DNA from: Gemmatimonadota bacterium
GTDB lineage: Bacteria; Gemmatimonadota; Gemmatimonadetes; Gemmatimonadales; Gemmatimonadaceae
Length of the DNA stretch: 45,882 bases
Reading direction: 5' to 3'
Assembly (NCBI GenBank): GCA_016194585.1
Contig: JACQBG010000038.1
Location: forward strand, 1 to 45,882
The position numbers were made by a program, and so were the translations under genes. Below the pieces are notes generated by a model. The model had not been told where the DNA came from and did not search any database. It saw nothing but the letters and a program-made list of their open reading frames with translations. Of this stretch, positions 21,309 to 23,939 are shown piece after piece. The stretch's first letter is position 1. Each line of letters begins with the position of its first letter.

Positions 21309-21357
21309 GGTCGCGCCCCCTTGACGGCGCGCGCCGCAGCCCGCTAACCTGACCGCA
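21300..21357 (+). promoter_or_regulatory. Promoter of the aromatic operon within a 10-bp inverted repeat
   Basis: TTGACG (21321-21326), an 18-bp spacer and TAACCT (21345-21350) form a plausible sigma-70-like promoter. The start would fall at about 21357, the first base of the leader peptide ATG. TGCGGTCAGG (21300-21309) and CCTGACCGCA (21348-21357) are perfect inverted repeats flanking it. The left copy overlaps the predicted dnaX -35 and the right copy overlaps this -10, as operator half-sites might. Confidence 0.55.
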
Positions 21358-21446
21358 TGCCGACGCGCCGCGCGTATTACTACGCCACGTATTACTTCCG
21401 CCCCCAACCACGGGTCGCGGCGGTAGACGTTCGCGCGCACGCCTAG
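21357..21446 (+). CDS. Tyr/Phe-rich leader peptide of an aromatic operon attenuator
   Basis: This is a 29-codon ORF, ATG 21357 to TAG 21444-21446. Residues 7-14 read YYYATYYF, five Tyr and one Phe in eight codons. It lies directly upstream of an intrinsic terminator and genes for DAHP synthase, chorismate mutase and prephenate dehydrogenase, whose end product is tyrosine. By analogy with trp, phe and his leaders, ribosome stalling at uncharged tRNA-Tyr (and tRNA-Phe) would let the nascent RNA form an antiterminator. The start codon is at the predicted transcription start, so the leader may itself be leaderless. The ORF, codon cluster and terminator are visible; the regulation is inferred. Confidence 0.85.
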   Translation: MPTRRAYYYATYYFRPQPRVAAVDVRAHA

Positions 21447-21485
21447 CGGCGCACCGACACTCTCCGCAATCGCCGAAGCCCGTGG
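21408..21485 (+). promoter_or_regulatory. Antiterminator pairing of the Tyr attenuator
   Basis: CCACGGGT at 21408-21415, inside the leader ORF 10 nt after the Tyr/Phe codons, can pair with GCCCGTGG at 21478-21485 (7 Watson-Crick pairs plus one G-U). The second segment is the left arm of the terminator, so the two structures exclude each other. The first segment has the same core sequence as the terminator's right arm. CCGCC (21398-21402) and GGCGG (21419-21423) could form a competing hairpin that hides the first segment. Confidence 0.7.
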
Positions 21486-21505
21486 ATGATTCCACGGGCT
21501 TTTCT
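21476..21505 (+). terminator. Intrinsic attenuator terminator
   Basis: AAGCCCGTGGA (21476-21486) and TCCACGGGCTT (21491-21501) form a perfect 11-bp stem with loop TGAT and a T-rich tail (21500-21505). It lies between the leader peptide stop and the DAHP synthase start, so it can only act on the operon's own transcript. Confidence 0.92.
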
Positions 21506-21540: not shown

Positions 21541-22602
21541 GTGATCATCATCGCCCGCACCGCCCTGCCCGGCCCCGAGCTCGACGGCATCCGCGAGTTC
21601 GTGGAGCGCCATGGACTGCGCACGCACGTCTCGCACGGCACCGACCGCACCGTCATCGGCTGCGTCGGCGACGCGCGCGCGATCGACCCGCACGCGGTGC
21701 GGGCGCTCCCCGGCGTCGAAGAGGTGATCCCCGTCCGCAAACCGTACCGGCTGGCGTCGCGCGAGTTCGTCGCCGGGCGCACCGTCATCCCGCTCGGCGA
21801 CCGGCGCGGCACGCTGATCGGCGGGCCGCAGCTCGTGGTCGCCGCCGGGCCCTGCTCGGTGGAGGGGCGTGCGATGCTGCTCGAGACCGCGACGGCGGTG
21901 CGCGCGAGCGGCGCCCGGATGCTCCGCGGCGGCGCCTTCAAGCCACGCACCTCGCCGTGGGTGTTCCAGGGACTCGGCGTGGAGGCGCTCGAACTGCTCG
22001 CCGAGGCACGCGCCGCCACGGGGCTCCCGGTCGTGACCGAGGTGATGGACCCGCGGCAGGTGGAGCTCGTCGCGGCGCACGCCGACGTGCTGCAGATCGG
22101 CGCGCGCAACATGCAGAACTACGCACTGCTCGCCGAGGTGGGCCGCGTCCGGCGCCCCGTGCTCCTCAAGCGCGGACTCTCGGCGACGGTGAGCGAGCTG
22201 CTGCTCGCGGCGGAGCACGTGATGGCGCAGGGGAACCGCGACGTCATCCTCTGCGAACGCGGCATCCGCACGTTCGAGACGGCGACGCGCAACACGCTCG
22301 ACGTGGGCGCGGTGGCGGTGCTGAAGCTCGAGACGCACCTCCCGGTGATCGTCGACCCGAGCCACGCGGCTGGGCGCGCCGACCTCGTGGCGCCACTGGC
22401 GTTCGCCGCGGTCGCGGCGGGCGCGGACGGGCTGATCGTCGAGGTGCACCCGCGGCCGAGCGAAGCGCGTTCCGATGGCGACCAGAGTCTCACGCCGGCG
22501 GTGTTCGACGACCTGATGCGCGCCCTCGCGCCGTTCGCGGCGGCCGCGGGGCGCACGCTCGACGACGAGGCGCCGCGCGAGCCGCGGGCGCGCGTCGCGT
22601 GA
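21541..22602 (+). CDS. aroF: 3-deoxy-7-phosphoheptulonate (DAHP) synthase, type I-beta with regulatory domain
   Basis: The product is 353 residues from GTG 21541, with GAGGA at 21529-21533 seven nt upstream. Residues 1-70 form the ferredoxin-like domain seen in Thermotoga-type enzymes, where Tyr binds for feedback inhibition. The barrel follows, with AGPCSVE, the [17 protein letters not shown] phosphate/PEP site, [14 protein letters not shown] and VDPSHAAGR. It joins PEP and erythrose-4-phosphate, the first step of the shikimate pathway. It is the first structural gene after the attenuator and shares a 4-bp overlap (GTGA) with chorismate mutase. Confidence 0.96.
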
Positions 22603-22886
22603 CGGCCGCACGGCAGGCCGACCCGGTGCTGGCGAAGCTGCGCGCCGACCTCGAGGTGCTCGACGGCGAGATCGTGCGGCTCGTCGCCCTGCGTGTCGAG
22701 ACGGCGCGCGCGATCGGCGCGCACAAGCGCGCCGCGGGCGTGCCGACGCTCGACGCACCCCGCGAAGCCGCGGTCATCCGCCGCGCCGCCGCCGCGGCGC
22801 GCGACGCGGCACTGCCGGAGGAGCCCCTGCGTGCGATATTCTGGCAGCTGGTGGAGCTCTGCCGTCGCGCACAGGAGGAGGTTTGA
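22599..22886 (+). CDS. aroQ: Chorismate mutase, AroQ class
   Basis: The product is 95 residues from GTG 22599, which overlaps the DAHP synthase stop. It is an all-helical AroQ fold: [30 protein letters not shown], then [12 protein letters not shown], and [13 protein letters not shown] at the end. Catalytic Arg, Lys (IGAHK), Asp/Arg-Glu (DAPRE) and Gln are present. It converts chorismate to prephenate. In related organisms this domain is fused to DAHP synthase and regulates it; here it is a separate, translationally coupled gene. The symbol is generic for the AroQ fold. Confidence 0.92.
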
Positions 22887-23794
22887 TGCTGGAGAACGAC
22901 ACGGTCGCCATTCTCGGACTCGGCCTCATCGGCGGCTCGCTGGCGCGCGACCTCTCCCAGCGCGGGGCTCGCGTGCTCGGCTACGACACCGACCCCGCGG
23001 CGATCGTCGAGGCCCGGAAGGCGCGCGCGATCCGGGCCGCGATCGGGGAGGACTTCGAGGCGCTGCGCACCGCCACGATCGTGGTGCTGGCCGTGCCGGT
23101 GGACGTCGCCCCCGCCCTGCTCGAGCGGGCGTCGCACTTCCTCGACGCTGCCGAGCTCGTGACCGACGTCGGCAGCACCAAGCTCCGCATCGGCGCGGAG
23201 GCGTCGCGCGTGGGCGTGCGCACGCGATTCGTCGGATCGCACCCGATGGTCGGCGACCACCGGGCCGGCTTCGGCGTGTCGCGCATGGGGCTGTTCAGCG
23301 GCGCGCGGGTGTATCTGTGCCCGTCCCCCCAGTCGGAGCCGGCGGCGAAGACGAAGGCGCTCGAGATGTGGCACGCCGTGGGCGCCGACGTGCGGTGGAC
23401 GACGCCGGAGCGGCACGACGGCGAGGTCGCGTTCACGAGTCACATGCCGCACCTCGTCGCGGCGGCGATCGCGCGCACCATCGAACACGCGGGGCACGAC
23501 GCCACGGCGCTGGGGCCGGGCGGACGGTCGATGACGCGGCTCGCGGAGTCGTCGCCGGCGATGTGGCGGGCGATCGTCGCGACGAACCACGAGGCGATCG
23601 CGCGGGCGCTCGACGCCTGCATCGTCGAGCTCGAGACGGTCCGCGACATCGTCGGGCGGTGCGACCAGGACGCCGTCGTGCGGCTGTTCACCGAGGCCGG
23701 CGCGTGGAGCGAGCCGCCGGAGACCCCGTCGCCCGCCACGAAGCGCGCGGCCTCGCGGGCAGCGAGGGGTACGGATCCCGCCGCGGCGAAATAA
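22886..23794 (+). CDS. tyrA: Prephenate dehydrogenase
   Basis: The product is 302 residues. AGGAGGAGG at 22873-22881 precedes ATG 22886, which overlaps the chorismate mutase stop (TGATG). The NAD(P) motif GLGLIGG is at 11-17. VTDVGSTK, GSHPMVGDHRAG and the catalytic His in FTSHMPHLVA are TyrA signatures. It converts prephenate to 4-hydroxyphenylpyruvate, the committed step to tyrosine, which fits the Tyr-rich leader. The C-terminus is Pro/Ala-rich and there is no ACT domain. It could also accept arogenate. Confidence 0.95.
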   Translation: MLENDTVAILGLGLIGGSLARDLSQRGARVLGYDTDPAAIVEARKARAIRAAIGEDFEALRTATIVVLAVPVDVAPALLERASHFLDAAELVTDVGSTKLRIGAEASRVGVRTRFVGSHPMVGDHRAGFGVSRMGLFSGARVYLCPSPQSEPAAKTKALEMWHAVGADVRWTTPERHDGEVAFTSHMPHLVAAAIARTIEHAGHDATALGPGGRSMTRLAESSPAMWRAIVATNHEAIARALDACIVELETVRDIVGRCDQDAVVRLFTEAGAWSEPPETPSPATKRAASRAARGTDPAAAK

Positions 23795-23837: not shown

Positions 23838-23939
23838 GTGTCCCAGGCCTGACGGTGCGACGTACGACATCGCGTACCGTTGCTTCCTTTCGGACCTGGC
23901 GGAGTTGGCGCGCGGGCGCCCACCGGGACCTGGGACACC
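23838..23939 (-). ncRNA. ffs: Signal recognition particle RNA (4.5S, small bacterial type)
   Basis: The minus strand contains CCAGGTCCGAAAGGAAGCAA (core at 23881-23896), the conserved domain IV apical loop of SRP RNA with a GAAA tetraloop. The two ends pair as GTGTCCCAGG with CCTGGGACAC, closing a single rod of about 100 nt, the size of 4.5S RNA. It binds Ffh and targets nascent membrane proteins to FtsY. A -10-like TATATT on the minus strand (23943-23948) lies just upstream. The exact ends are estimated from the stem. Confidence 0.95.

Follow-up and report, generated by a model that had tools for sequence, protein, structure and literature searches.

The window, that is the whole stretch of 45,882 nucleotides analysed from contig JACQBG010000038.1 of a Gemmatimonadota bacterium, contains a tyrosine operon in which a short leader open reading frame (ORF) and a hairpin are followed, in order, by the genes for DAHP synthase, chorismate mutase and prephenate dehydrogenase. 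The named records closest to the group of this DAHP synthase are Gemmatimonadetes. The upstream neighbour of the leader, dnaX, is divergently oriented, and the hairpin at 21475–21502 is therefore not the end of another gene's transcription. The leader and the structural genes were located as follows:

21357–21446, + strand: leader peptide ORF MPTRRAYYYATYYFRPQPRVAAVDVRAHA, 29 codons with the stop codon TAG at 21444–21446; its layout is shared with relatives
21375–21398, + strand: control region, consisting of Tyr7-Tyr8-Tyr9 (21375–21383) and Tyr12-Tyr13-Phe14 (21390–21398), assigned from the sequence and from the match of control residue to pathway across relatives
21541–22602, + strand: aroF-type DAHP synthase, the first structural gene of the operon (Pfam DAHP_synth_1, E 3e-79, plus a ferredoxin-like domain)
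22599–22886, + strand: chorismate mutase type II (Pfam CM_2, E 8e-17)
22883–23794, + strand: prephenate dehydrogenase (tyrA), the last gene of the tyrosine operon (Pfam PDH_N, E 1.5e-29, and PDH_C)

The control codons of the leader, five Tyr and one Phe, stand ahead of a tyrosine operon, and the window has the arrangement that characterises an attenuator, a short ORF with both start and stop codons placed between a predicted promoter and the first structural gene. Just past the end of the operon, and convergent with it, a bacterial small SRP RNA (Rfam RF00169, 50.1 bits) occupies positions 23839–23934 of the minus strand.

A prior reading of this DNA from its letters alone (the sequence-only reading) had proposed a mutually exclusive antiterminator, in which the heptamer CCACGGG at 21408–21414, repeated in the right arm of a terminator at 21492–21498, competes for CCCGTGG at 21479–21485. 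These coordinates proved exact to the base, as did the placing of the upstream copy 10 nt downstream of the last control codon (TTC, Phe14, ending at 21398) and within the coding part of the leader, the stop codon TAG being reached only at 21444–21446. The elements of the two competing structures are:

21408–21415, + strand: 5′ strand of the antiterminator, repeating the terminator right arm and lying within the ORF, supported by covariation with the left arm and by the fold of a transcript that stops just short of the right arm
21418–21424, + strand: second antiterminator strand, CGGCGGT, paired with 21469–21475 in a fold of the window sequence alone
21469–21475, + strand: partner of the second antiterminator strand, from the fold of the window sequence
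21475–21486, + strand: terminator left arm GAAGCCCGTGGA, the segment common to antiterminator and terminator
21491–21502, + strand: terminator right arm TCCACGGGCTTT, followed by the interrupted U tract TCTCGTT

The terminator is a 12-bp hairpin ahead of the first structural gene; its U tract is short, interrupted and weaker than in most relatives, and a generic terminator scan of the window did not call it. When the transcript was folded up to the right arm, the antiterminator exceeded the pairing originally proposed, comprising 8 bp between 21408–21415 and 21478–21485 together with 7 bp between 21418–21424 and 21469–21475. In the masked folding that the sequence-only reading had suggested, the antiterminator formed when the mask covered the first 40 or 50 nt, the terminator alone was able to form under a mask of 90 nt, and once the full right arm of the window was included the terminator was always the more stable of the two. 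As modelled, this succession, with the antiterminator first and the terminator once the right arm is present, is the order expected of an attenuator. The heptamer itself is not rare in so GC-rich a window (12 matches against 10.6 expected), and its significance consequently rests on relatives, which shifted the case to comparative evidence. A chance repeat of the heptamer was considered in its own right: the window alone proves nothing on this point, and the comparative evidence decides against it.

A covariance model (R1) built on 15 aligned leaders ahead of related DAHP synthases matched 153 of the 179 genomes of the host's family at E 0.1, and 184 of the 395 genomes of the phylum at E 0.001; about 170 loci were retrieved and read, yielding a series of approximately 160 leaders. 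In every one of the 119 distinct leaders of the family, the segment most complementary to the terminator left arm lay within the leader ORF, in a scan that also took in the spacer 3′ of the stop codon, where a match was equally possible; in the other families of the phylum the same held for 38 of 39 leaders. The one exception, a pheA leader (L344), pairs through GGGGGCCG/GGCTCCC, and its frame stops after four residues at the start predicted by the model, although the true start may be elsewhere. Typically for leaders of the family, the copy starts about 50 nt past the A of the ATG and about 9 nt past the last control codon, and ends about 25 nt ahead of the end of the stop codon, with the left arm starting about 27 nt past the stop. 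Relatives retaining an intact leader peptide but lacking complementarity between the two segments would have told against the antiterminator: 13 of the 119 leaders were weak in ungapped pairing, yet with gaps allowed each of the 13 still gave a duplex of −10 to −17 kcal/mol. At gathering scores the Rfam leader families (Phe_leader, Thr_leader, His_leader and Trp_leader) gave no match to the window, and nine loci representing the Tyr, Phe, His and Thr versions matched no Rfam attenuator family when all hits of E ≤ 5 were admitted. A search for plasmid-borne relatives of the leader found none, and in the window's own genome the model search scored the aroF attenuator alone, the next match being a plain terminator and the remainder noise-like.

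Selection on the pairing was assessed with 73 distinct triplets of copy, left arm and right arm, in which 87.5% of the cells of the copy:left-arm helix were standard pairs compared with 79.7 ± 0.9% in shuffled sets, the copy register having been picked as the best duplex, a choice that favours pairing and is countered only in part by the slid, permuted and synonymous controls. The covariation check proposed in the sequence-only reading was borne out in the same triplets: both partners differed in 54 cells, compared with 18.5 ± 3.8 after shuffling, the leaders compared being related sequences and not independent. Sliding the register by one base reduced copy:left-arm pairing to about 44%; the terminator helix was 97.7% paired and likewise covaried in relatives. 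Compensating variants of left arm and copy include GAGCCTCCGC with GCGGAGGCTC and AGCTCCCG with CGGGAGCT, and further matched changes are CCCCTGTC with GACAGGGG and CGGCCCGCGG with CCGCGGGCCG. The mean pairing score of leaders with their own left arms was 21.2, as opposed to 18.9 ± 0.3 when left arms were permuted among leaders, and the corresponding RNAduplex energies were −17.75 and −15.76 ± 0.20 kcal/mol. Synonymous recodings of the leaders with background codon usage gave a pairing of 17.1 ± 0.3, the real leaders being better with a pooled z of 12. Moreover, the RNA motif CACGGGCCG encodes Thr-Gly-Arg in the majority of leaders but Arg-Ala or Arg-Val in the rest, among them the leader of the window, and translation of one RNA motif in different frames indicates that the constraint acts on the RNA and not on the peptide. 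Covariation, location within the ORF in relatives and this RNA-level constraint together strongly support, at the level of sequence comparison, the proposed mutual exclusion of antiterminator and terminator.

Two predicted promoter elements precede the leader:

21321–21326, + strand: predicted −35 element TTGACG, from the sequence, with similar hexamers in relatives
21345–21350, + strand: predicted −10 element TAACCT, separated from the leader ATG by 6 nt, a spacing typical of relatives

A generic promoter scan of the window reported no promoter at this site. Among 130 leaders, a TANNNT box lay 6–10 nt before the ATG in 93, with peaks at 6 nt (29 leaders) and 7 nt (33 leaders) and few at other spacings, and 77 of these 93 also carried a TTGACA-like hexamer (at least five of six positions, with a spacer of 15–19). 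No TANNNT box occurred at those spacings before any of 124 downstream genes, and Shine-Dalgarno-like 4-mers were present before 7 of the 130 leaders compared with 47 of the 124 downstream genes. The spacing of the box to the ATG puts the predicted start of the transcript on, or immediately next to, the A of the leader ATG, which would make the transcript leaderless.

The residues encoded by the leaders were compared with the enzymes downstream, counts being means over leader residues 3–18 and downstream genes being assigned by sequence motifs with representatives confirmed in Pfam. Leaders preceding DAHP synthase (63) averaged 3.4 Tyr and 1.5 Phe, those preceding hisG (17) 6.1 His, and those preceding aspartokinase (3) 8.3 Thr. 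Seven leaders of the family ahead of prephenate dehydratase, six of which represent one closely similar type, averaged 3.0 Tyr and 3.7 Phe, but in eight pheA leaders from other families the means were 4.5 Phe and 0.25 Tyr. No Trp version of the leader was detected at any of 30 trpE loci. This tracking of the pathway by the codon cassette is, at the level of sequence comparison, the strongest evidence that the leaders are working attenuators. The His-rich leaders before hisG (L196, L213, L214 and L231 among others) carry a variant module, CCCGTC/GACGGG, and the Thr-rich leaders before aspartokinase (L325, L338 and L340; for example MTSAAICTTCTTTTTTTRVTGRGRECLRR) carry the same module as the remainder, in parallel to E. 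coli thrL.

Phenylalanine 4-monooxygenase converts Phe to Tyr, and the 28 leaders preceding its gene averaged 3.4 Tyr and only 0.07 Phe. The leader was found at 13 of the 30 phenylalanine hydroxylase loci searched. Those upstream of Biopterin_H genes (L146, L150, L167, L190 and L279 among others) are Tyr-rich, nearly Phe-free, and equipped with both terminator and antiterminator; the genome of the window has no Biopterin_H gene. We know of no report of Tyr control of phenylalanine 4-monooxygenase, and the literature searched (full text, with incomplete coverage) contained no attenuator of phenylalanine hydroxylase; the enzyme is probably a new attenuation target.

With the leader ORF, its codon specificity, the terminator and the covarying alternative pairing within the ORF all evident from sequence and comparison, the element of the window is very probably a ribosome-mediated attenuator tuning the aroF–chorismate mutase–tyrA operon to charged tRNA-Tyr (and tRNA-Phe). 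For transcription start, stalling, read-through and the blocking of the antiterminator by a ribosome at the stop codon, we infer the following course. With transcription starting at the leader ATG, the ribosome would load at the extreme 5′ end of the RNA. When Tyr-tRNA is scarce it would stall on the Tyr/Phe codons, leaving 21408–21424 free, and a stall on any control codon except the last ones would suffice to expose the copy; the free segment could then capture 21469–21485, and with it the left arm of the terminator, and read-through by RNA polymerase would follow. When Tyr-tRNA is plentiful the ribosome would proceed toward the stop codon, which lies between copy and left arm, and there should hold the two apart, whereupon the left and right arms would pair and transcription would terminate.

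With a ribosome masking early or middle control codons and the right arm still unmade, the antiterminator had a predicted mean pairing probability of about 0.92. When the mask was placed at the stop codon, folding still predicted the antiterminator in around half of the leaders, and strongly so in the window; since folding alone fails to explain the off-state at the stop codon, that state would rely on steric or kinetic effects. The sequence-only reading had also suggested that a 5-bp hairpin could hide the copy. The complementarity on which this was based, CCGCC at 21398–21402 with GGCGG at 21419–21423, is present, but a protector of this kind is weakly supported across relatives: a 1:2 protector hairpin scored on average 11.4 against 10.0 in shuffled sequences and was singly significant in 7% of leaders, so that the hiding hairpin of the window is a candidate structure. 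A universal 1:2 protector hairpin was rejected on the same weak average; individual leaders in which the hairpin is strong are L114 (CACGGCCCGT/ACGGGCCGTG), L148, L136 and L219.

Several other accounts of the same features were weighed against attenuation by a stalled ribosome. It is improbable that the copy is a by-product of the conserved peptide tail TGRGWRR and no antiterminator, with terminator and leader peptide both real and regulation following some other route: many leaders do have a tail TGR(G)xRR, and the synonymous p-values of single leaders are modest (median 0.19), but the pooled synonymous test, the reading of the RNA motif in different frames (TGR, or RA/RV) and the matching of left-arm variants by compensating copy variants all argue against it. 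Conservation at the peptide level was accordingly ruled out as the source of the copy by the frame shifts and the synonymous recoding. It is very improbable that the leader works chiefly through leader-peptide-dependent or rho-dependent arrest, or in trans as a small RNA, and that the antiterminator counts for little; the strong covariation of the antiterminator and the failure of the peptide tail to be kept in frame oppose this view, even though a ribosome at the stop codon, judged by the fold itself, still permits the antiterminator, and the leaderless attenuator RNA of Sinorhizobium meliloti and its peptide are known to act in trans (PMC7298713).

Scarcely credible is the idea that the terminator is constitutive, or ends the transcription of an upstream gene, and that the leader ORF is an artefact. 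GC-rich DNA does abound in small ORFs and hairpins, and the window contains the heptamer about as often as chance would give; against this, dnaX is divergent, hundreds of genomes share the layout, the control codons match the downstream enzyme, and the promoter elements are tied to the ATG.

Attenuation by a stalled ribosome at this locus can be compared with several established systems. E. coli trpL, pheL and hisL likewise combine a leader peptide, control codons, a terminator and a competing antiterminator, but their left-arm complement lies 3′ of the stop codon (2 nt past it in trpL and pheL). The remark in the sequence-only reading that the location of the copy within the coding part is unlike trp is hence true of trp itself but does not extend to E. 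coli thrL, ilvL and leuL, in which, as in the present leaders, the antiterminator strand follows the control codons but is still within the leader ORF; in thrL, 10 nt at ORF positions 54–64 are complementary to the terminator left arm. The position within the ORF is therefore not new. Aspartokinase lies downstream of E. coli thrL and of the Thr version of the present family alike; the RNA sequences of thrL, ilvL and leuL differ from those of the Gemmatimonadota leaders, and these three attenuators are not known to be leaderless.

The leader peptide of Corynebacterium glutamicum aroR (Phe-Tyr-Phe) controls aroF by ribosome-mediated attenuation (Neshat et al. 2014, as cited in PMC11802643; PMC4046766), and it shares with the present system a Phe/Tyr leader peptide, a DAHP synthase operon and the mode of attenuation. 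It belongs to another phylum and responds to Phe and not to Tyr, whereas the leader of the window is dominated by Tyr (5 Tyr, 1 Phe). The attenuator transcript of S. meliloti trpL (rnTrpL) begins with the ATG of its leader ORF (PMC7298713) and is thus leaderless, as predicted for the present leaders, but it differs in having Trp codons, in preceding trpE(G) and in belonging to the Alphaproteobacteria. The uORFC-13-1 motif upstream of aroF in Acholeplasma, a candidate uORF found only in Acholeplasma and environmental sequences and possessing its own consensus structure (PMC8632094), is similar in that a uORF with Phe adjoins a terminator ahead of aroF.

Classical leader-peptide attenuation has been studied mostly in proteobacteria and actinobacteria. 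The element of the window is ordinary ribosome-mediated Tyr/Phe attenuation of this classical kind, new for the lineage; attenuation in Gemmatimonadota was apparently undescribed before, the literature searched (full text, with incomplete coverage) holding no report of it, and leader-peptide attenuation is extended to this phylum. The surprise lies in phylum-wide leaders, predicted to be leaderless, with swapped control codons rather than in the copy within the ORF. Whether the Gemmatimonadota possess a single leaderless attenuator family, with a fixed module inside the ORF and an exchanged cassette of control codons (Tyr, Phe, His or Thr), re-targeted to several pathways including Tyr control of phenylalanine 4-monooxygenase, is a proposition for which the chances are judged to be about even. 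The leaders constitute a natural series in which the RNA switch is constant and the control codons change from one regulated enzyme to the next, and which makes testable the co-evolution of leader codons and antiterminator, attenuation on leaderless RNAs, and control of phenylalanine hydroxylase by Tyr supply.

Tyr/Phe-rich leader ORFs followed by terminators were also seen within about 260 bases before DAHP synthase genes in Acidobacteriota (L074, L079 and L094), and likewise within about 260 bases in Calditrichota (L049) and Clostridia (L097, L099, L103 and L106). At the Acidobacteriota loci the left-arm complement spans the stop codon or falls just 3′ of it, and a −10-like box is situated close to the leader ATG.
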